From Magnetospirillum moscoviense (GTDB lineage Bacteria > Pseudomonadota > Alphaproteobacteria > Rhodospirillales > Magnetospirillaceae): a stretch of DNA of 58,650 nucleotides. The notes under the pieces were generated by a model. The model did no database searches. It saw only the letters and a program-made list of their open reading frames with translations, and was not told where the DNA came from. Location: positions 1 through 58,650 of the forward strand of contig NZ_LWQU01000095.1 of assembly GCF_001650635.1 (NCBI RefSeq), read 5' to 3'. Within the stretch, counting starts at the first letter, position 1. Every line of letters starts with the position of its first letter. A program made the translations under genes and the position numbers. Shown in pieces: positions 22,222 through 32,855 of the stretch.

Positions 22222-24360
22222 ATGGCGTTTCGCTCCATTCGTTCGACGGTGCTGATTCCGGCCCTGGTCCTGATCCTTGGGACCGGGATCGGGACGGCTG
22301 CCTTGTCGTTCCTGAATGCCCGCTCGGCCGTCAACCATATGGGACACGAATTGCGGGCCGAGTTGTCGCTTCGTGTGGTCGAGCGGCTGCGCTGGTTCCT
22401 GTCCCAGGCGCCGGGCATGCTGCGCGCCAATGTGCGATTGCTGGAAGCCGGGCTGATCTCGATGACCGATTCCGGCTTGCTCCAGCGTCATTTCTGGGGG
22501 CAGGTGCTGATCAACGACGCGGTCACCACCATCTATTTCGGCAACCAGGCCGGCGGACTGGTCGGGGCCGGCCGTGACGGTCCTGGCGGCAAGCTCTATC
22601 TTACCGGCACCGAGAATTTCGCCGCCGGCCCATGGGCCAAGGTCTGGGTCGATGACGACGGCAATCCGGGTTCGCGGTCGATGCGGATCGCCAATTTCGA
22701 CGCCCGCTTGCGGCCATGGTACCAGGGCGGAGCCAAGGCCGCCGACATCGCCTGGGGCGACATCTTCGTGCTGTTCACCGGCGACGACATGGCGTTGGCG
22801 CCCAGCCTGGCGGTCCATGACCAGCGGCAACAGGTGGCGGGCGTTGTCGCCACCGACATTTTTATCTCGCATATCGCGTCCTTCCTGCGCGATCTGCAAG
22901 GGGCTCGCCCGGGCTTGACCTTCGTCCTCGAATCCGGCGGCCTGATGGTGGCGTCGTCGGCCGACGAACGGCCGCTGGTGGCCTTGGGCCAGGGATTGGC
23001 GCCGCGCCGTTTGATGGGCGCCGACATGCGCACCCCGGAAATCTCGCAGGCGGTGCGCGCCATCGAGAGGGAAGTCGGGTCGCTTGGGGCTGTCGTCGGT
23101 TCGACGCAATTGTCGACCGAAATCGCCGGCCAGCGCCACTTCGTCGAGGTCACCCCGTTTTCGGCCATTCCCGGCCTGTCCTGGCTGGTGGCCACCGTCG
23201 CCCCCGAGGACGCCTATCTGGGCCGCGTCACCGAAGGCAACACCACCACCTTGGCGGTGATCGCCGCCATGCTGATGCTGACGCTGATGATCGGGGTCAG
23301 GCTGGCCGGCAGCATCACCCAGCCGATCCGTCGTATTCGCGAGGCGTCGCAGCGAATTTCCGCCGGCGACCTGGCGGTGCGCATCGAGGATTCCCGTCAT
23401 GACGAGTTGGGCGAACTGGCGCGCGCCTTCAACACCATGGCCACCACCCTGGGCCGCGCGGCCGAGACCCAGGTGACGCAATTGCACGAACTGCGCGATG
23501 CCGAGGCCCAGGTGCGCCGGCTGAACCAGGAACTGGAACAGCAGGTGAGCACGCGCACCCATCAATTGGTCGAGCGCATCGAGCAGGATCTGCTGACCCA
23601 GGAGGAGCTGCGCAAGGCAAAGGACGAAGCCGAGCGCGCCAGTCGTGCCAAGAGCGAGTTCCTGGCCAATATGAGCCACGAATTGCGGACGCCGTTGAAC
23701 TCGATCGTCGGTTACTCCGACGCCATCCTGAGCGGGACGTTCGGCCCGATCGACAATCCCAAGCATGCCGAATATGTGCGCGACATCCACCGGTCCGGCC
23801 GCTACCTGACCGATTTGATCAACGACATTCTGGACCTGTCGGCGGTCGAGGCCGGCAAGGTCGAACTGAAGGATGGATTGTTCACGGTCGCCGAGCTGGT
23901 CGCCGCCACCCGGCCGCAGATCCGGGCCCGCGCCGTCGAGGCCGGCGTGGAACTGGTCTTCGACCTGCACGACGATCTGCCGGCGCTGTTGGTCGATGAA
24001 CGCCGGGTCAAACAGATGCTGCTGAACCTGATGTCCAACTCGGTCAAGTTCACGCCCCCGGGCGGACGGGTCACGGTCTCGGCAGCCGAGGCCGGCGACG
24101 GCTTGACCCTAAGGGTGGCCGATACCGGCATCGGCATGACCGCCGATGAAATCGAGCGGGCTCGCACCCGCTTCGGCCGGGTCGATTCCCATCTGGCCCG
24201 CGTCCATGCCGGGACCGGGTTGGGGCTGCCGGTGACCGAAAGCCTGATCGTCCTGCATGGCGGAATCATGGATATCGACAGCGTCAAGGGCCGGGGCACC
24301 ACGGTGTCCTTGTGGTTCCCGCCGTCCCGGGTGGTCCGCCCGACCGCCGAGGGCGATTAG
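22222..24360 (+). CDS. dCache-type sensor histidine kinase
   Basis: 712 residues. First membrane helix at 10-30, a long periplasmic sensor of about 310 residues with features of a Cache domain ([24 protein letters not shown]), second helix near 340-360. Then HAMP ([20 protein letters not shown]), a coiled coil (about 415-475), HisKA with H486 ([17 protein letters not shown]) and ATPase with [10 protein letters not shown] and DTGIGM. No receiver domain. Unpaired here. The start ATG follows AAAGGG. The stop overlaps the convergent EAL gene by four bases. Confidence 0.93.
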
Positions 24361-26189
24361 CCCAAGGTGCCGATGGCCTGGCGAGAGGCGCTTTGCTTGG
24401 CTTGCTTCTTCAAGACGGCGATCTGTTGGCCGACATCATCGACCGAACAGGCCGCGCGGCCGGCGGGAAGGTGGATCACCGCCGCCGACACCGTCATCAG
24501 CGGAAAGCGCAGGCTATTGCCCTGGCGGTCGGTGCCGTCGATATGGCCCTGTTTGCGGGTGGCGTCGTCATAGAAGCTTTCGACGTCGCGGGCGAAGGCC
24601 GCGATCAGGCGGGCGGTGACCGCGACGGCCTCGTCGGGGGGCAGGCCGCGAAAGGCAGCGAAGAAGTCGTCGCCGCCGACATGGCCGGGAAAGCCGCAAT
24701 CGCGCGGCATCGCCTTGGTCAGCAACTCGGCGAACAAGGTGATGGCGCGGTCGCCCAGGCGGAAGCCGTACTTGTCGTTGAACGGCTTGAAATTGTCGAA
24801 GTCGAAATAGGCCAGCACGAACGGGGTGTCGGTGGCGGCCAGCGCTTCCGACAGATATTCGTGGATCAGGTTGTTGCCCGGCAGCCGCGTCAACGGGTTC
24901 TGGTCGCGCGCGGCGGCCAGGTTCTTCTCGTTGATGACGCGCAGCAGCGAATGGGCCGACAGGAAGCCGACATATTTCATGGTGTCGACGATCAGGATGC
25001 CTTCGGAATTCTCGACCGCCGAATAGACCTGCAGGATCTGCTCGGCCTTGGTGTTGATGTCGGCGATCGGGCAGCGCACCACGAAATCCTTGAGACGCCG
25101 GCCGATGGTCTTGTTGGCGATCAGCGCCTTGCCGTACTGGGAATAGGTATAGTCCTTGAGTTCTGCCTCGCGCACGATGCCGACCGGCTCGCCGGCCGCG
25201 TCGATGACCGGAAAGAAGGTCACCGTCTTGTCGGAACGGAACCGTTCGAACACCTGCTCCATCGGGCAATCTTGCATGATCGGCTCGACCTGGGTGATCT
25301 GGTCGGCGATCAGCTTCTGGTCGCTGACCGGCGCCCGGCGCTCGGCCCGGCCCAACCGCTCGACCTCGCCGTAATGGGGCAGCAGGTCCTGGGCCCGGCG
25401 CGTCGGCTTTTGCACCAGCCAGCCCTGGATCAGGTCGCAGCCGATATCCTTGCAGACGAAATATTCCCGCTCGGTCTCGACCCCTTCGGCCAGCACCACC
25501 ACGCCCAACAGGTGGGCGATGTTGACGATCTGCCCCAGGAACAGCTTCTTCTTCGAATCGGACGCGATGTCCGAGATGAAGAAGCGGTCGATCTTCAACA
25601 CGTCGGGGGCGGAGAAATACAGCAATTGCAGGCCCGAGAAGCCGGTGCCGAAATCGTCGATGGCCAGGCGGAAGTTGGCCTTCTTGTAGTGGCCAAGCGC
25701 GATGCGGGCGGTGGCGGGCACGCCGATCGGGTGACGTTCGGACACTTCGAACACCACCTGGCTTTCCTCGATGCCGTGGCGGTCCAGCATGGCCCGGGTC
25801 CGGACCGGAAGATCGTCGTCGGCGGCCAGCGAGCGGTTGTCGATGTTGATGAACAGCTTGGTCTGGCGCCAATGCGGCATCTGGCGGAACTTGGCCGCCG
25901 CCTTCTCGCGCACGCACATTTCGATGTCGGACAGCAGGCCCAGCGCGTGGCCGGTGTCGAACACGTCGTCGATGCTGGCGAAACCGGCTTCCTCGTGGTT
26001 GCGCAGCAGGGCCTCGTAGCCGTAGCAGGCGCCGGTATGGATGTTGACGATCGGCTGCAGCGCGATGTCCAGGCGATCCAGCACGCCATCCCACGGATCA
26101 TCGGGTCGGGCCTTGGTGGGGAAGGGGGTGCCACGCGGCGGCAGGGTCGGTCTGGGGACGTCACTGAGAACGGTGGCGGAAAGGGACAT
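24357..26189 (-). CDS. EAL-CBS-GGDEF c-di-GMP protein
   Basis: 610 residues from ATG 26189 (a longer frame to 26282 exists). The EAL domain comes first, with EALLR, LFINID, DDFGTGFSGL and AEGVETE, so phosphodiesterase residues appear intact. Two CBS-like segments follow in the middle (VTFFPVIDAAGEPVGIV; GILIVDTMKYVGFLSAHSLL). A GGDEF domain ends the protein with DFDNFKPFNDKYG and signature GGDDF, a conservative variant that may or may not be active. CBS pairs usually bind adenosyl nucleotides, suggesting nucleotide-responsive c-di-GMP turnover. Confidence 0.92.
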   Translation of the reverse strand: MSLSATVLSDVPRPTLPPRGTPFPTKARPDDPWDGVLDRLDIALQPIVNIHTGACYGYEALLRNHEEAGFASIDDVFDTGHALGLLSDIEMCVREKAAAKFRQMPHWRQTKLFINIDNRSLAADDDLPVRTRAMLDRHGIEESQVVFEVSERHPIGVPATARIALGHYKKANFRLAIDDFGTGFSGLQLLYFSAPDVLKIDRFFISDIASDSKKKLFLGQIVNIAHLLGVVVLAEGVETEREYFVCKDIGCDLIQGWLVQKPTRRAQDLLPHYGEVERLGRAERRAPVSDQKLIADQITQVEPIMQDCPMEQVFERFRSDKTVTFFPVIDAAGEPVGIVREAELKDYTYSQYGKALIANKTIGRRLKDFVVRCPIADINTKAEQILQVYSAVENSEGILIVDTMKYVGFLSAHSLLRVINEKNLAAARDQNPLTRLPGNNLIHEYLSEALAATDTPFVLAYFDFDNFKPFNDKYGFRLGDRAITLFAELLTKAMPRDCGFPGHVGGDDFFAAFRGLPPDEAVAVTARLIAAFARDVESFYDDATRKQGHIDGTDRQGNSLRFPLMTVSAAVIHLPAGRAACSVDDVGQQIAVLKKQAKQSASRQAIGTLG

Positions 26190-26344
26190 GACGCGGCTCG
26201 CTTGTGATCGACGCGGGCCGGAGTCTGGTTGTCCCACCCCCCGAGAGTCAACGTCGATACCGTGACGCAACATAAACTTCACGGGGCAATTCCATATTTG
26301 TTAAATGGTTTTACCGACGCGGCCGATGCGGGCATCATCAGCCG

Positions 26345-28024
26345 ATGGCTGTCGTCGAGAATCCCACCCAACTTCCGGCCACCTTGGCCGACGACCTGGA
26401 CCTGATCGCCGAGATGACCGGCGACTTCGCCCGCTCCTACGACATCGAGGAGACGTTGCGGGTCGGCCTGGCCCATATCAGCACCCGCATGGAGGCCGAG
26501 GCGGCCTCGCTGTTCCTGATGGAGGAAGGCAGCGGCGAGTTGGTGTGCCGGGCCTGTTTCGGCCCGACCGACGTGACCGGATTGCGGTTGCCCAATGGCC
26601 AGGGCATCGTCTGGCGCGCGGTCAGCCGCAACGCCACCGAATTGGTGCAAGACACCCGCGACGATCCCGACTTCGCCGCCCGGGTTGACGACGATACCGG
26701 CTTTCGCACCCGCTCGATCCTGTGTGCGCCGCTTTCCGTGCGCGACGAACGGCTGGGCGCCATCGAACTGTTCAACAAGAAGGGCGGCGGCAGCTTCGAT
26801 TCCGACGATGTCCGCGTGCTGCAGGCGCTGGCCGCTTCCGCCGCGCTGGCCCTGATCAATGCCCGCCAGGCCGCCGCCATGGCCGAACGCCAGGCGCTGT
26901 CGCGCGAACTGGCCCTGGCCTCCGACATCCAGCGGGCCATGCTGCCCAAGGAAAGATGCGCGGAATTTCCCATCCATGGCATCAATTTGCCGGCCCGGGG
27001 GGTGTCGGGCGACTTCTTCGACGTGGTCGAACTGCCCGGCGGCCGGTTGGCCTTCGCCATCGCCGACGTCTCGGGCAAGGGCATGAACGCCGCCCTTCTG
27101 ATGGCCAAGACCGCCAGCCTGTTCCGCTGCCTGGCCAAGCGCCTGGACGGCCCCGGCGCGCTTTTGCAGGCCATCGATTCCGAACTGGCCGAGACCGGGT
27201 CGGCCGGGATGTTCGTCACCATGGTCGCCGGCGTGCTGGACCCGGCCACCGGCCGCGTGCGTTTGGCCAATGCCGGGCACGAGCCGCCGCTTTTGTGCTG
27301 TGGTGCGCGCATGAGCCGCATCGACGAAGGCCTGCCGCCCTTGGGGGTGATCCCGGAAATGTTCGCCGCCGGCTGCCCGGAAAGCGAGATCGACCTGGCC
27401 GGCGGCGCCCTTTACCTGTTCACCGACGGCCTGACCGAGGCCGACGACGACGGGCGCATGTTGGGGTCCCTGGGGGTCGAGCGGCTGTTGACGCGCCATC
27501 GCCTGCTGCCGGCGCCCGAGCGCCTGCGCGCGGTGGTCGCCGAGGTCGCCCCCGAGGGCGCCGCGCTGAAGGACGATCTGACCATGCTGGTGGTCGAGGA
27601 CCGTCGCGACGGCCCCTTGCTGCGCCGGCTTTATCCGGCGGTGCCGGCCAGCCTGGCCGAGGTGCGCCGGGCCGTCACCGGGGCGCTGACCGCCCAGGGA
27701 CTGGAGGATTCCGTGGTCGGCGACATCATCCTGGCGGTAGACGAGGCCTGCCAGAACGTGGTGCGTCACGCCTATGGCGGCAGCGATTCCGGCGACATGA
27801 TCGTCGAGCTTCGTCGCAAAGGCTGCGAATTGGTGATCGATCTGCTAGATTTTGCCGCTCCGGTCGATCCGGCCCGGGTGGTGCCGCGCGACCTGGACGA
27901 TATTCGTCCCGGCGGATTGGGCACGCACCTGATCCGCGAGATCATGGATCGCGTCGAATTCTTGAAGCCGCCTGCCGGGGCGGGCAACCTGTTGCGGATG
28001 GTGAAGGGGCTGGGGAACCAATGA
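26345..28024 (+). CDS. GAF-PP2C(SpoIIE)-HATPase partner-switch regulator
   Basis: 559 residues with three parts. A GAF domain (about 20-175) with AEAASLFLMEEGSGELVC. A SpoIIE/RsbU-type PP2C phosphatase (about 190-415) with GVSGDFFDVVEL, AIADVSGKGMNAAL, LANAGHEPPLL and LKDDLTMLVVE, keeping metal-binding Asp residues. An RsbW-like HATPase kinase domain (about 425-555) with AVDEACQNVVRHAYGG and GGLGTHLIREIMD. Phosphatase and anti-sigma-type kinase are therefore in one chain, which would dephosphorylate and phosphorylate a STAS protein. The candidate STAS gene overlaps its stop codon (ATGA). Confidence 0.93.
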   Translation: MAVVENPTQLPATLADDLDLIAEMTGDFARSYDIEETLRVGLAHISTRMEAEAASLFLMEEGSGELVCRACFGPTDVTGLRLPNGQGIVWRAVSRNATELVQDTRDDPDFAARVDDDTGFRTRSILCAPLSVRDERLGAIELFNKKGGGSFDSDDVRVLQALAASAALALINARQAAAMAERQALSRELALASDIQRAMLPKERCAEFPIHGINLPARGVSGDFFDVVELPGGRLAFAIADVSGKGMNAALLMAKTASLFRCLAKRLDGPGALLQAIDSELAETGSAGMFVTMVAGVLDPATGRVRLANAGHEPPLLCCGARMSRIDEGLPPLGVIPEMFAAGCPESEIDLAGGALYLFTDGLTEADDDGRMLGSLGVERLLTRHRLLPAPERLRAVVAEVAPEGAALKDDLTMLVVEDRRDGPLLRRLYPAVPASLAEVRRAVTGALTAQGLEDSVVGDIILAVDEACQNVVRHAYGGSDSGDMIVELRRKGCELVIDLLDFAAPVDPARVVPRDLDDIRPGGLGTHLIREIMDRVEFLKPPAGAGNLLRMVKGLGNQ

Positions 28025-28347
28025 ACGTGAATGTTCGCGAGCAAGAAGGTGCGATGGTGGTGACGCTGGAGGGCGAGATCGACCTGCAGCGTTCGCCCGC
28101 CGTGCGCAAGCAATTGATGGAGCTGATGTTCGACAGCCGCGATGTGGTGGTCGATCTGTCCGGTGTCGCCTATATCGATTCGTCGGGCATCGCCTCGCTG
28201 GTCGAGGCCTATCAGATGGCCCGCAAGAACAACAGCCGTTTCGTCCTGGCGGCGGTCAGCCAGCCGGCGATGCGGGTGCTGCAGCTCGCCCGTCTCGACA
28301 AGGTGTTCGCCTTGGCCGAGACCGTCGCGGCCGGGCTGAAGGCTTAA
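28021..28347 (+). CDS. STAS-domain protein (RsbV- or MlaB-like)
   Basis: 108-residue single STAS domain: VVTLEGEIDLQRSPAVRK and VVVDLSGVAYIDSSGIASL, with the phospho-acceptor Ser of anti-anti-sigma factors at S55 (DSSG). It overlaps the phosphatase-kinase gene and stands six bases before the mlaE-type permease. Two readings are possible: the RsbV-type substrate of the upstream regulator, or the MlaB-type STAS subunit of the downstream transporter. The kept Ser favours the first, the position fits both. Confidence 0.93.
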   Translation: MNVNVREQEGAMVVTLEGEIDLQRSPAVRKQLMELMFDSRDVVVDLSGVAYIDSSGIASLVEAYQMARKNNSRFVLAAVSQPAMRVLQLARLDKVFALAETVAAGLKA

Positions 28348-28353
28348 GGGCCG

Positions 28354-29154
28354 ATGCGCGATCGGGTGCTGGACGTTCTGGAAAATGTCGGGCGCGCCAC
28401 CACCCGGGGCGTCGCCGAGCTGGGATTCGCCGCCAGTCTGCTGGGCCAGTCGGTCTATTGGCTGGTGCTGGGCCGGGCGCGCAAGCAGCCGGTGCGCCTG
28501 GCCCCGATCTTCGCGCAAGCGATGGATATCGGCATCGCCGCCCTGCCCATCATCACCGTCCTGGCCGCCACCATCGGCCTGATGCTGGCGATCCAGGGCA
28601 TCTATACGCTGAAGACCTTCGGCGCGGAAAGCCGCGTCACCCTGGGGGTGGCGCTGTCCACCGTGCGTGAATTCTCGCCCTTGATCACCGGCATCCTGGT
28701 GGCCGGCCGATCGGGTTCCGCCCTGGCGGCCCGGCTGGGGACCATGCGCATCAACCAGGAAATCGATTCGCTGACCGTGATGGGCATCTCGCCGGTGCGC
28801 TTCCTGGTGGTGCCGCCCCTGGTGGCGATGGTGGTGCTGATGCCGCTTCTGACCCTGTGGGCCGATCTGGTCGGGCTGGCCGCCGCCGGCCTTTACATCG
28901 CGGTGGAATTGCAGACCACCTTCGCCGCCTATGCCGACGAGGTGCTGTCGCTGTTGAAGCTGAACGATCTGCTGCACGGCCTGGCCAAATCGGCCATCTT
29001 CGCCGTGCTGGTCACCATCGTCGGCGTGGTCAACGGCGCCTCGGTGACCGGCGGCGCCGAAGGGGTCGGGCGGATGACCACCCGCTCGGTGGTGCACGCC
29101 ATCTCGGCCATCGTCGTCACCGACATGCTGTTCGTCTTCATGGTGACCCGATGA
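28354..29154 (+). CDS. mlaE: MlaE-type ABC lipid transporter permease
   Basis: 266 residues, inner membrane. It starts with an amphipathic segment and has about five further helices. The family motifs are TLGVALSTVREFSPLITGILVAGR-like around residues 95-120 and GTMRINQEIDSLTVMGISP. Pairs with MlaF ATPase encoded next (ATGA overlap) and MlaD. The complex moves phospholipids between inner and outer membranes to keep outer-membrane asymmetry. The N-terminal extension of about 40 residues before the conserved core is usual in alphaproteobacteria. Confidence 0.93.
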   Translation: MRDRVLDVLENVGRATTRGVAELGFAASLLGQSVYWLVLGRARKQPVRLAPIFAQAMDIGIAALPIITVLAATIGLMLAIQGIYTLKTFGAESRVTLGVALSTVREFSPLITGILVAGRSGSALAARLGTMRINQEIDSLTVMGISPVRFLVVPPLVAMVVLMPLLTLWADLVGLAAAGLYIAVELQTTFAAYADEVLSLLKLNDLLHGLAKSAIFAVLVTIVGVVNGASVTGGAEGVGRMTTRSVVHAISAIVVTDMLFVFMVTR

Positions 29155-29984
29155 GCCAGTCCTCCATCGTCGTCGAGAACCTGAACACCTTCTACGGGTC
29201 GCGGCACATCTTGAAGAACGTCTCGCTGACGGTCGAACCGGGCGAGATCTTCATCATCATGGGCGGTTCGGGCTCGGGCAAGACCACGTTGTTGAACCAT
29301 CTTTTGGGGCTGTTGATCCCGACATCGGGGACCATCCGCATCCTGGGCAAGGACATCCATGCGGTGTCGGCCCTTGAACGCCAGGCCTTGCGCACCCGCA
29401 TGGGGGTGGCGTTCCAGTCCGGCGCGCTGTTTTCGTCCATGAGCGTCGGCGAGAACATAGCGCTTCCGCTTCGCGAGCATGCCGAGCTGGACGAGACCAC
29501 CATCGGCATCGTCACCCGCCTGAAGCTGGAAGTGGTCAGCCTGGCCGGCTTCGAGAATCTGATGCCGGCCGAGTTGTCGGGCGGCATGATCAAGCGGGCC
29601 GCCCTGGCGCGCGCCATCGTCATGGACCCGCGCCTTTTGTTCTGTGACGAGCCCTCGGCCGGGCTGGACCCGGTGGTGGCGTCCTCGATCGACGACCTGA
29701 TCCTTAGGCTGCGCGACGCCATGGGCATGAGCATCGTGGTGGTCACCCACGATCTCGATTCCGCCTTCAAGATCGCCGACCGCATCTGCGTGCTCGACAA
29801 GGGCGAGGTGCTGGCGCTCGACACCGTCGATGCGATCCGCCGCTCGGACAACGAGCGTATCCAAAATCTTTTGAACCGCCGCACCGAAGAGGCCGAGGTC
29901 GATCCCGACGCCTATCTGCGGCGGCTGATGGGCGAAAAGGAGCGGAGCACCCGCTTCGGCCCGCAAGCGAGGAAGGGTCTATGA
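29151..29984 (+). CDS. mlaF: MlaF-type ABC transporter ATPase
   Basis: 277 residues. Walker A GGSGSGKTT (39-47 region), Q-loop VAFQSGALFSSMSVGEN typical of the Mla family, signature ELSGGMIKRAALARA, Walker B LLFCDEPSAGLDP and switch His in VVTHDL. The C-terminus beyond residue 245 is a basic tail that in MlaF proteins contacts the neighbouring subunit. Start and stop overlap the flanking mlaE and mlaD genes by four bases each. Confidence 0.95.
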   Translation: MSQSSIVVENLNTFYGSRHILKNVSLTVEPGEIFIIMGGSGSGKTTLLNHLLGLLIPTSGTIRILGKDIHAVSALERQALRTRMGVAFQSGALFSSMSVGENIALPLREHAELDETTIGIVTRLKLEVVSLAGFENLMPAELSGGMIKRAALARAIVMDPRLLFCDEPSAGLDPVVASSIDDLILRLRDAMGMSIVVVTHDLDSAFKIADRICVLDKGEVLALDTVDAIRRSDNERIQNLLNRRTEEAEVDPDAYLRRLMGEKERSTRFGPQARKGL

Positions 29985-30931
29985 GGGACGCGCGCACCAA
30001 TTACGTCATCGTCGGCTCGTTCGTGCTGGCCATGCTGGCGGCGCTGGTCGTCACCGTCGCCTTGCTGACCGGCCGCACCGGCTCGGCCGACATCTACTTC
30101 ACCGAACTGGGCCATGTCGGCGGCATCAAGTTCGGCTCGAAGGTGACCTATGACGGCTTCGTCGTCGGCACCGTCGAGGATATCGAGCCGGTCCGCGTCG
30201 AGGGCAAGACCCGCTTCAAGGTCAAGCTGGCGGTCAAGGAAGGCTGGCCGGTGCCGGAAGGCTCGGTGGCGCGCATCACCGCGCCGGGCATCCTGGCCGC
30301 GGTGGTGGTCGATATCAAGGGCACCACCTCGGACAGTTTGCTGAAGCCCGGCTCGGCCATTCCCGGGGCTCCCGCCGCCAACATCTTCGCCGTCATGAAC
30401 GACATGTCGGCCCAGGTCACCAAACTGAACCAGGAAGGGCTCTTGCCCTTGATGGCGACGCTGAACCAGCAGGTCGCCACCTTGGGCGGCGTGCTGGAAA
30501 AGCAGGCGCCGGAATTGCTGGCCAACCTGGCCCTGATCAGCACCGATCTGGCCGCCAAGGCGCCGCGCATCACCTCGGACGTCCAGAAGATGACCGGTAC
30601 CCTGGCCAATTCCGTGGTCACCGAGCAGAACGCCGCCCAGATCGGCCAGTCCCTGAAGAACGTCGCCGAACTGACGGCCGGTCTGCAGGACAGCCGCAAG
30701 AAGCTGGACGGCATCATCGGGGCCATCGATGCCAACAAGGGCAATGTCGATCAATCCCTGAAGGATTTGCGTCATACCTTGCAGGCGGTGGCACGGACCA
30801 TCGATTCGGTGACCTACAATCTGGAAGGCACCAGCCGTAACGTGCACGAATTCTCGCGCCAGATCCGCGACAATCCCGGCGTGCTGATCGGTGGCACCAA
30901 GGGCGCCGGCGACGGGCCGGGCAAGCGGTAG
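29981..30931 (+). CDS. mlaD: MlaD-type MCE-domain substrate-binding protein
   Basis: 316 residues: an N-terminal membrane anchor (about 8-28) and an MCE domain (about 38-115) containing GGIKFGSKVTYDGFVVG and ARITAPGILAAVVVDIKG. A long predicted helical region (130-290) follows, with EQNAAQIGQSLKNVAELTAGL. Such proteins form hexamers that hold lipid at the periplasmic face of MlaE. Translationally coupled to mlaF. Confidence 0.94.
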   Translation: MRDARTNYVIVGSFVLAMLAALVVTVALLTGRTGSADIYFTELGHVGGIKFGSKVTYDGFVVGTVEDIEPVRVEGKTRFKVKLAVKEGWPVPEGSVARITAPGILAAVVVDIKGTTSDSLLKPGSAIPGAPAANIFAVMNDMSAQVTKLNQEGLLPLMATLNQQVATLGGVLEKQAPELLANLALISTDLAAKAPRITSDVQKMTGTLANSVVTEQNAAQIGQSLKNVAELTAGLQDSRKKLDGIIGAIDANKGNVDQSLKDLRHTLQAVARTIDSVTYNLEGTSRNVHEFSRQIRDNPGVLIGGTKGAGDGPGKR

Positions 30932-30942
30932 GAGAGGGGGAT

Positions 30943-31527
30943 ATGAGGAAGCAGGCTTTCATCTTGGTATTGGCCTCGGCCCTGTCCGCCTGCGCCTCGC
31001 CGGCACCGCCTCGGGACAGTTTCCACCGGCTCGAAATCGCCCAGCCCGCCCAGCGTTTCACCGCGCCGGTGCTGCCCGGCGTGCTGGAAGTCGCCCGGCT
31101 GGAAAGCGAAGGCATGCTGAACGAGCGGCCCCTGGCCTATCAGGAAGCCGACGGCTCGCTGGCCCGCTACCGCTATGATCTGTGGACCGAGGTGCCGGCG
31201 GTGATGCTGCAGGAACACCTGACCGAGGTTCTGCGCGGCGCAGGCATCGCCGGGACCATCACCACGCCCGATTTACGGGTGCCGCCCGACTGGATCCTGC
31301 GCGGCCGCATCTCGCGGTTCGAGCTGGTGCCGTCCTCGGGCAAGGTGGTGGCCAGGATCCGTCTGGCGGTGGTGTCGGCCAAAGACGGCGGCCTGGTGCT
31401 GCAGGAAACCTATGGGGCGGAGGTGCCGGCCGCCACCGGTCCCGATGCCGAGGTCAAGGCGCTGGGCGCCGCGGTCAGCGACATCCTGGCCCGCTTCGTC
31501 GCCGATCTGGGTCGGGCGCGGCGATGA
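30943..31527 (+). CDS. ABC-type transport auxiliary lipoprotein (PqiC/DUF330-like)
   Basis: 194 residues with a lipoprotein signal (ALSACAS, lipid Cys16). The mature part resembles the auxiliary lipoprotein family found after MCE transporters in alphaproteobacteria: HRLEIAQPAQRFTAPVLPGVLEVARLES-like start, WTEVPAVMLQEHL, and ending ALGAAVSDILARFVADL. It probably anchors the MCE bridge to the outer membrane, replacing MlaA/MlaC, which are absent here. GGAGAGGGGG precedes the ATG. The stop overlaps the methyltransferase start. Confidence 0.85.
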   Translation: MRKQAFILVLASALSACASPAPPRDSFHRLEIAQPAQRFTAPVLPGVLEVARLESEGMLNERPLAYQEADGSLARYRYDLWTEVPAVMLQEHLTEVLRGAGIAGTITTPDLRVPPDWILRGRISRFELVPSSGKVVARIRLAVVSAKDGGLVLQETYGAEVPAATGPDAEVKALGAAVSDILARFVADLGRARR

Positions 31528-32855
31528 GCCTTCGCAAGCGTCACGCTCCGCCGTCGCGCGCCAAGGCGCGGGGCAATGCCGTCACCCCCCGCGCGGTCGA
31601 GGTGACCGTCGACGAACTGGGCGCGCGCGGTGACGGCATCGCCCGTCTGCTGGGCGAGTTGGTGTTCGTGCCCTTCACCGTTCCCGGCGACCGGGTCATC
31701 GCCCGCATCGAGGGCCGGCGCGGCGACGGTCTGGTCGCCGCCCTGGTCGAGGTGCAAGCGCCCGGCCCCGACCGCGCCACCCCGCCATGCCCCCATTTTG
31801 GCCGCTGCGGCGGCTGTTCGCTGCAGCATGTGGGGGCCGCGTCCTATGGCGCCTGGAAGCGCGACCTGCTGGTCACCCATCTGGCCCGCCATGGTTTCGC
31901 CGACGCCCTTGTCGATCCGTTGATCCAGGTGCCGGCCGGGACCCGACGGCGGGCCACCTTCGCCTTCCATCGCTCGAAATCGGCGACGATCCTGGGCTTC
32001 AACGGCCGCGCCAGTCATACGGTGATCGACATCGATGCCTGCCTGTTGCTGGACCCGGCCCTGGCCGCCCTGATCGTCCCCTTGCGCCGCATGCTGGGCG
32101 AGGTGGTCGCCGCCGGCGAGGATGGCGACGTCACCATTCTGGCAGCCGATTCCGGGCTGGACGTGCTGGTGGAAGCCGATGCCCGGCTGGACCTGTTCGA
32201 CCGCGAGCGCCTGGCCGCCTTCGCCGATTCCCACGATCTGGCCCGGCTGTCGTGGCGCCGGCCGGGGGCGGGCTTCGTCGATCCCATCGCGCGCCGCCGC
32301 CCGGCCGTGGTCAGCTTCGGACCCGTTCAGGTCGAGCCGGCCCCGGGCGGCTTCCTGCAGCCGACCAAGGACGGCGAGAACGCCATCGCCGCGGCGGTGC
32401 TGGCCGGCATCGGCCCGGCCCGTCAGGTCGCCGACCTGTTTTCCGGCTGCGGCAGCTTCACCTTCCCGCTGGCGGCGCAGGGCCGCACAATCCATGCCGT
32501 CGAGGGTGAGGAAGCCCCGGTTCGTGCCCTGGAAGCGGCCGCGTCCCGGGCCGGGCTGAAGGTCACGGCCGAGGTGCGCGACCTGTCGCGCCGTCCGCTG
32601 CACGCCCAGGAACTGAAGCGTTTCGACGCGGTTCTGTTCGACCCGCCCCGGGCCGGTGCGGCGGCTCAGGCCGAAATGCTGGCCGAATCGGGGCCGGATC
32701 GGGTGGTGGCGGTGTCGTGCAATCCGGCGACCCTGGCGCGCGACCTGCAGACCCTGGCCAAGGGCGGCTATCGGCTGGAACGGGTCACTCCCATCGACCA
32801 GTTCCCGAGGTCGGCCCATCTGGAAGCGGTGGCGGTACTGGTCAGGCACAAATAA
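31524..32855 (+). CDS. TrmA/RumA family 23S rRNA/tRNA uracil-C5 methyltransferase
   Basis: 443 residues. N-terminal TRAM-like domain (VEVTVDELGARGDGIARL), an iron-sulfur cluster motif CPHFGRCGGC plus a later Cys in DIDACLLL, SAM site VADLFSGCGSFTFPLA, DPPRAG and catalytic nucleophile SCNPATLARDL near residue 405. It methylates C5 of a uridine in 23S rRNA (RlmC/RlmD type) or tRNA; which one cannot be told. ATGA overlap with the preceding lipoprotein gene makes it part of the Mla operon transcript. Confidence 0.92.
   Translation: MSLRKRHAPPSRAKARGNAVTPRAVEVTVDELGARGDGIARLLGELVFVPFTVPGDRVIARIEGRRGDGLVAALVEVQAPGPDRATPPCPHFGRCGGCSLQHVGAASYGAWKRDLLVTHLARHGFADALVDPLIQVPAGTRRRATFAFHRSKSATILGFNGRASHTVIDIDACLLLDPALAALIVPLRRMLGEVVAAGEDGDVTILAADSGLDVLVEADARLDLFDRERLAAFADSHDLARLSWRRPGAGFVDPIARRRPAVVSFGPVQVEPAPGGFLQPTKDGENAIAAAVLAGIGPARQVADLFSGCGSFTFPLAAQGRTIHAVEGEEAPVRALEAAASRAGLKVTAEVRDLSRRPLHAQELKRFDAVLFDPPRAGAAAQAEMLAESGPDRVVAVSCNPATLARDLQTLAKGGYRLERVTPIDQFPRSAHLEAVAVLVRHK

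Follow-up and report, generated by a model that had tools for sequence, protein, structure and literature searches.

Positions 26345 to 31527 of the 58,650-base contig NZ_LWQU01000095.1 of Magnetospirillum moscoviense (the contig is hereafter the window; the genome comprises 4.16 Mb in 207 contigs) contain a six-gene operon in which a kinase-phosphatase regulator and a STAS protein precede the genes of what appears to be an MCE lipid transporter akin to Mla and Mpc. We regard it as likely that the STAS protein is both the MlaB equivalent and the phospho-switch of this transporter, such that the lipid pump is probably switched on and off by phosphorylation. This reading draws on the order of the genes, a deeply conserved module, catalytic motifs that are intact, an invariant serine, an RsbV-type fold of STAS and an MlaB-type tail on MlaF.

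Our model predicts that STAS, as a transporter subunit, would double as a partner-switch protein. In the 'on' state, unphosphorylated STAS would bind MlaF like MlaB and support either assembly or ATP hydrolysis. The regulator, through its HATPase domain, would phosphorylate Ser54 of STAS, which lies at the start of helix 2 and on the side corresponding to the MlaF-binding face of Escherichia coli MlaB. Phospho-Ser54 would then remove STAS from MlaF, turning transport down, and the PP2C domain, under the control of GAF input, would strip the phosphate from STAS. The kinase and MlaF would presumably share one face of STAS in a mutually exclusive manner, with the regulator switching the STAS partner. 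We infer phosphorylation, STAS-MlaF binding, the polarity of the switch and its effect on lipid flux.

Each of the six genes is an open reading frame with an ATG start and no internal stops. The genes and the features within them are as follows.

26345..28024, forward strand: regulator, 559 amino acids, GAF - PP2C (SpoIIE type) - HATPase_c_2 (RsbW type); Pfam
26441..26854, forward strand: GAF domain (input), residues 33-170; PF13185/PF01590
26930..27604, forward strand: PP2C phosphatase domain, residues 196-420; Pfam and conserved D223, D241, D361, D410 and D411
27635..28006, forward strand: HATPase_c_2 kinase domain, residues 431-554; Pfam and conserved E467, N471 and G523-G526
28021..28347, forward strand: STAS protein, 108 amino acids, RsbV-type, proposed switch subunit and MlaB equivalent; PF01740, 79 bits
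28180..28182, forward strand: Ser54 codon, predicted phosphoacceptor (first Ser of DSSG); conservation, model and alignment with MlaB T52
28354..29154, forward strand: MlaE-type permease, 266 amino acids, without a fused STAS; PF02405 only, 220 bits
29151..29984, forward strand: MlaF-type ATPase, 277 amino acids; Pfam ABC_tran and Foldseek
29904..29930, forward strand: MlaF C-terminal 'handshake' helix, residues 252-260, with Y255 and L259; motif and model
29981..30931, forward strand: MlaD/MCE protein, 316 amino acids, with a long C-terminal region; PF02470
30943..31527, forward strand: ABC_trans_aux lipoprotein, 194 amino acids; PF03886, 'PqiC-like' being taken from the family name

A previous reading of the window (the sequence-only reading) had placed GAF, PP2C and RsbW-like kinase domains in a single chain. 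Pfam confirmed this arrangement in the 559-residue regulator (GAF 33-170, SpoIIE/PP2C 231-418, HATPase_c_2 431-554). The two gene junctions that it described were also correct: the regulator and STAS genes overlap by four bases (28021-28024), and the STAS stop codon is six bases ahead of mlaE in the mlaE-mlaF-mlaD series. The mlaE/mlaF and mlaF/mlaD pairs overlap by four bases as well. To the five genes that it listed we add a sixth, encoding the ABC_trans_aux lipoprotein. The MlaD/MCE protein scored under the cut-off of TIGR00996, and the best Foldseek matches of the MlaF model were MlaF chains in solved Mla complexes. No mlaC was found by Pfam among the six genes, to which the search for MlaC was confined.

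Relatives of the operon were found by MlaE alone, so that linkage to the other genes was not selected for. The first set consisted of the M. moscoviense genome and 60 relatives, with a close MlaE (at least 56% identity) in 47 of the 61. The second set came from scanning a single genome of each species, its 80 named loci being the best 80 of the 539 confirmed candidates listed. Together the two sets gave 126 loci, 108 of them distinct by MlaE sequence and 18 duplicates; the 108 are the nearest relatives rather than all MlaE. MlaE of genome G009 is 92% identical to that of M. moscoviense, and the nearest named organism is Magnetospirillum sp. UT-4 (90% over residues 6-266). In the 46 loci of the first-set relatives, STAS was found in 45, HATPase in 45, and GAF and PP2C in 43. 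Searches of 14 paralogous MlaE loci fetched alongside found none of the four domains.

We found that STAS was encoded on the same strand and at most 4.5 kb upstream of mlaE in 105 of the 108 distinct loci (45/46 and 60/62 by source set), and that the kinase was present in the same 105, PP2C in 100 and GAF in 95. Upstream of mlaE, STAS never occurred without the kinase, nor the kinase without STAS. When the count was limited to distinct loci whose upstream sequence reaches 2.5 kb or more (95 loci), the figures were 93 for STAS, 93 for the kinase, 90 for PP2C and 88 for GAF. Downstream, MlaF was present in 106, MCE in 103 and the lipoprotein in 96 of the 108. The gap from the STAS stop codon to the chosen mlaE start had a median of 6 bases (n = 105). 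A recurrence in 105 of the 108 distinct loci puts the kinase-STAS-mlaE arrangement beyond chance.

Departures from this arrangement were few. One locus (L064, genome G026) has its kinase-STAS pair about 8 kb off on the same contig (L202), and the sequence of another (L150) starts 41 bases ahead of mlaE. Three distinct loci (L073, L092 and L153) have the kinase and STAS but no phosphatase next to them, despite at least 4 kb at hand, and in L065 (= L127), where the regulator and STAS are present, no mlaF was found between mlaE and mlaD. In genome G271, whose MlaE is 46% identical, the STAS, GAF-PP2C and kinase genes adjoin mlaEFD-lipoprotein in convergent orientation. Because the parts stay close even in the rearranged genomes G271 and G026, these cases speak for a functional linkage of module and transporter. 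In L091 (G010) the MlaE match is split over two frames, possibly as a result of a frameshift or a sequencing error.

The loci cover Rhodospirillales and reach beyond the Alphaproteobacteria. Their record titles include Magnetospirillum, Paramagnetospirillum, Telmatospirillum, Insolitispirillum, Terasakiella and Solimonas sp. SE-A11. Loci from metagenome-assembled genomes (MAGs) are labelled Salinisphaerales, Myxococcota, Deltaproteobacteria, Nitrospirota and Marinimicrobia, labels that may be wrong. An MlaE tree of 44 rows, which took 26 of the 108 operon-type loci plus M. moscoviense, separated the operon type (27 rows), by a branch with support 99/98, from canonical alphaproteobacterial Mla (6 rows) and from STAS-fused MlaE (9 rows). 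The MlaE proteins of E. coli and G271 form long branches whose placement is unsure. Further alignments, made for the structural work, contained 44 loci and M. moscoviense, hand-picked from 58 and 59.

Both enzymes of the regulator look active, because their catalytic residues are invariant in the order-level set: D223, D241, D361, D410 and D411 of PP2C in 44/44 rows (43 order-level loci and M. moscoviense), and E467, N471 and G523-G526 of the kinase in 46/46 rows (45 order-level loci and M. moscoviense). In their enzyme families these residues have catalytic roles. A dead kinase or phosphatase was ruled out by this conservation within that set. In two MAGs the kinase and STAS form one stop-free frame, a natural fusion (L067, 3240-3986, and L068). 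By eye, the N-terminus of the phosphatase at two Nitrospirota MAG loci (L180, 3914-5194; L188, 3892-5187) is a receiver-like domain instead of GAF. The input domain therefore seems exchangeable, to judge from sequence, while the kinase, STAS and transporter persist. We give somewhat better than even chances to a broader view, namely that these are ancient and widespread partner switches with a transport ATPase as output, in which a GHKL-type kinase and a PP2C phosphatase would act on a free STAS protein that gates an MCE transporter, with exchangeable inputs such as GAF or a receiver.

The DSSG motif that the sequence-only reading had pointed out in STAS occupies residues 53-56. When STAS proteins encoded upstream of mlaE were compared for conservation of the serine, as that reading had proposed, D-S-S-G was invariant in 106/106 (105 loci and M. 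moscoviense). An AlphaFold2 model of STAS (pLDDT 93.8) has Ser54 as the first residue of helix 2. In a profile comparison with E. coli MlaB (94.4% probability, 74 columns), D53-S54 of STAS aligned with D51-T52. Because STAS is of the RsbV type by profile and fold (see below), yet its Ser54 aligns with MlaB T52, it appears to be built like a kinase substrate and could fill the MlaB role too. Tandem STAS genes, with DSSG in both, lie between the kinase gene and mlaE at L163 and L164 (5241-5971 in each).

The passages of Kolich 2020 on the E. coli complex describe MlaB as binding MlaF by a helical face with T52 near its centre, and T52E as weakening this binding. With T52A the complex persists and ATPase activity is abolished (Thong 2016; Kolich 2020, in the passages concerned), so the hydroxyl may matter beyond binding. 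That result favours a reverse polarity, in which the parts are the same and phosphorylated STAS would be the activator of MlaF. The lower binding of T52E argues against it, as does the breaking of binding by phosphorylation in SpoIIAA, RsbR and RsbS, as told in passages of the MlaB literature, and in SiaC of the Pseudomonas aeruginosa SiaABCD system. We consider reverse polarity very improbable, and our model retains unphosphorylated STAS as the form that would bind MlaF.

In E. coli MlaFB, the short helix of the MlaF C-terminal extension inserts Tyr261, Leu265 and Leu266 between MlaB and the adjacent MlaF, according to the passage of Kolich 2020 that treats it. M. moscoviense MlaF has YLRRLM at this handshake position, modelled as a helix spanning 252-259. 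The motif Y-x3-L-[LMIVTFA] was found in the last 55 residues of 103/104 operon-type MlaF proteins, a set made up of 103 loci and M. moscoviense, with 5/108 loci lacking a complete MlaF. The single miss was L070, in which Phe replaces Tyr. The third handshake position is Thr in 64/104 operon-type MlaF proteins; in E. coli it is Leu. The background of the motif was 5/314 among other 55-residue stretches of operon-type proteins. In contrast, the tail motif was absent from 6/6 canonical alphaproteobacterial MlaF proteins, none with a STAS found alongside, and from 9/9 MlaF proteins beside a STAS-fused MlaE; both comparison samples are small and come from the order of M. moscoviense. The loose regular expression did match 2/6 of the canonical proteins, but in the core (YKGKLI/YKGRLI) and outside the tail. 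A STAS_2 match lies ahead of the permease in 9/9 of the fused MlaE frames (E 0.0035 or better), and in 3/9 it is over the Pfam cut-off. Because the motif occurs in 103/104 operon-type proteins as against 0/6 canonical and 0/9 fused ones, the handshake accompanies a free STAS within the samples examined. At L103 (3977-6139, reverse strand), a 721-residue open frame with an uncertain start codon combines MlaE with an HD domain and a weak match to STAS_2.

These findings bear on the possibility that the kinase is a direct inhibitor: the HATPase domain would block MlaF or MlaE as RsbW blocks sigma, unphosphorylated STAS would pull the kinase off, and STAS would be no MlaB. This scheme would retain the textbook RsbW logic, and the equal constancy of kinase and STAS in the module is consistent with it. 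However, the handshake tail of MlaF indicates an MlaB-like partner, and a related type of transporter has a STAS domain fused to MlaE. We therefore judge direct inhibition by the kinase to be quite improbable.

As a further line of evidence, a phylogenetic profile was made over 385 Alphaproteobacteria genomes, M. moscoviense included, with E-value thresholds of our own (1e-22 or better for STAS, 1e-55 or better for MlaE). STAS was found in 14 genomes, the MlaE orthologue in 14 and both in 12 (Fisher p 4e-19, uncorrected for kinship). MlaE without STAS was seen in G271 and in G371, the latter with an MlaE that begins at base 6 of a contig.

Several findings weigh against STAS being the MlaB equivalent of this transporter. 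STAS scored 29.2 bits against the NCBIfam model mlaB_1 (cut-off 90) and 85.9 bits against the anti-sigma antagonist profile TIGR00377 (cut-off 53.45). Two other STAS proteins of the same genome scored 32.2 and 31.0 against mlaB_1 in a comparison that gave the operon STAS 28.6. The nearest folds by Foldseek were RsbV and TM1442, with MlaB far lower: the top match was RsbV of the RsbV/RsbW complex (6m36_H; TM 0.86 by query, 0.92 by target), and MlaB chains ranked 37-48 in the list with TM-scores by target length of 0.67-0.76. The STAS model also keeps a fifth strand (97-99) and a last helix (102-107) that E. coli MlaB lacks. In covariation analysis of STAS-MlaF, STAS-kinase and STAS-MlaE (mutual information with average product correction, 101 rows, effective number of sequences 68), the top pairs lay off the expected contact faces, and the STAS-MlaF signal carried no information. 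MlaF of G271, which is outside the set of 104, has His at the handshake Tyr position. At L142 the transporter is present with no module in the 5 kb upstream, and two weaker STAS matches occur elsewhere in that genome. L049 (= L109, Magnetospirillum sp. UT-4) has the regulator, STAS and mlaE, with no mlaF, MCE or lipoprotein gene found after mlaE. Finally, G054 (100% complete) and G171 (81%) carry the regulator-STAS module, and no orthologue of the operon MlaE was found in either. In G054 the module (L189: GAF-PP2C, kinase, STAS) is followed by a gene that by eye resembles a glutathione S-transferase; its only MlaE match is a paralogue, and its sole MlaF at E 1e-45 or better (37%) is beside that paralogue. 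Of all the observations, that on G054 points most strongly to a different target being possible for the module.

These data raise the alternative of a classical partner switch with an unlinked target, in which STAS would only antagonise a kinase that holds a sigma factor or other protein encoded elsewhere, with mla sharing an envelope-stress regulon. The RsbV-type profile and fold of STAS, the two genomes with the module and no operon-type MlaE found, and the other STAS/kinase groups of the M. moscoviense genome are all in its favour. Conversely, the contig has no Sigma70 gene, STAS adjoins mlaE in 93 of the 95 distinct loci whose upstream sequence reaches 2.5 kb, and the handshake accompanies free, linked STAS among the MlaF proteins examined. 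An unlinked target is in our view unlikely, with a greater probability than either direct inhibition or reverse polarity. The proposal of the sequence-only reading, that one STAS protein serves as both regulator target and MlaB, thus draws support from the module conserved in 105/108 loci, the invariant serine and the MlaF tail, and is weakened by the RsbV-like character of STAS and by the two genomes carrying the module without operon MlaE.

The M. moscoviense genome contained 13 STAS matches, only one of them on the operon contig, in agreement with the claim that no other STAS gene lies nearby. A separate mlaB elsewhere in the genome had been named as an alternative; all 13 matches were scored and none passed the mlaB_1 cut-off, so this candidate was rejected. 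In the regions fetched around the other STAS matches, which leave out that of the C151 STAS (a 750-residue frame), there was no match to MlaE or MCE and only weak MlaF-model matches in L208. Sigma70_r2 was absent from the operon contig, all six genome matches being on other contigs. The claim that no sigma factor gene lies nearby, and the exclusion of a nearby sigma target, hold for Sigma70, as sigma-54 and the flanks of the relatives were outside the search. The genome has two MlaE and three MCE domains. By eye, the second MlaE and its mlaF follow an alanine-racemase-like gene, and the other two MCE domains are on contig C158. No STAS was found within the 11-12 kb fetched at the two canonical Mla loci (C145 and C158). 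Because several other STAS/kinase/phosphatase groups are present in the genome, cross-talk among such groups is possible.

Among known systems, the operon resembles RsbU-RsbW-RsbV and SpoIIE-SpoIIAB-SpoIIAA in having a PP2C phosphatase, a GHKL-type kinase and a phospho-Ser STAS protein, RsbV being the nearest fold. It differs in that the kinase and phosphatase are one chain, no linked Sigma70 gene is on the contig and the linked output is an ABC transporter. SiaABCD is, by analogy, a precedent for phospho-control of an enzyme rather than a sigma factor: a kinase/phosphatase pair controls whether a small partner protein is phosphorylated, and this partner binds an enzyme of the same operon and activates it. 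There the enzyme is a diguanylate cyclase, and SiaB and SiaC are members of other protein families. The SypE-SypA pair of Vibrio fischeri is alike in that a kinase-bearing regulator acts on a STAS protein. According to its abstract the mechanism there is unknown, and the pair differs in controlling biofilms with no lipid transporter described.

E. coli MlaFEDB shares with the operon MlaE, MlaF, an MCE protein, a free STAS protein with a Ser/Thr phosphosite and the MlaF handshake helix, as far as the published passages go. However, mlaB is the last gene of mlaFEDCB, with no kinase or phosphatase gene annotated there, and the M. moscoviense operon is without mlaC and has an ABC_trans_aux lipoprotein. 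In addition, MlaB is a 97-residue protein described without the fifth strand and last helix that the 108-residue operon STAS has. The parts of the report on Mpc of Brucella abortus that bear on its composition (EMBO J 2025) give MlaE-, MlaF- and long MlaD-like proteins with a PqiC-like lipoprotein, as in M. moscoviense; there, MpcE carries STAS as an N-terminal fusion, whereas the M. moscoviense STAS is free and linked to a kinase-phosphatase. Mpc-like fused MlaE proteins of the relatives (L096-L104) form a separate MlaE clade.

In the open-access literature we found no description of an operon joining a partner switch with an MCE transporter, and the main text of a 2021 review on single-domain STAS proteins mentions neither Mla, MlaB nor ABC transporters. 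The sequence-only reading knew of no description of such a link, which stands for the operon itself but not for the underlying idea: phosphorylation of MlaB was proposed by Thong 2016 and Kolich 2020, in passages that name no candidate kinase, and Kolich 2020 there treats the control of active MlaB as a question still open, with phosphorylation as one intriguing possibility. What the operon adds is a partner switch whose output is probably a transporter. Genetic linkage to the transporter, kept across distant bacteria, supplies candidates for the kinase, the phosphatase and the phosphosite. The regulation question thereby becomes directly testable, and the operon could answer how MCE-type lipid pumps between two membranes are regulated. 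If the model is true, partner switching gains an ABC transporter output, and outer-membrane lipid supply gains post-translational control via Ser phosphorylation.

Inspection of the flanks revealed a TRAM/uracil-5-methyltransferase-type RNA methyltransferase gene (31524-32855, forward strand) that overlaps the lipoprotein gene by four bases. On the other side, an EAL-CBS-GGDEF gene (24357-26282, reverse strand) is divergent from the regulator gene, with 62 bases separating the two starts. A homologue of this gene was seen in 19/108 distinct loci, many loci being too short to show it, and at L168 and L179 it is on the other side. A cyclic di-GMP link via this neighbour is possible.

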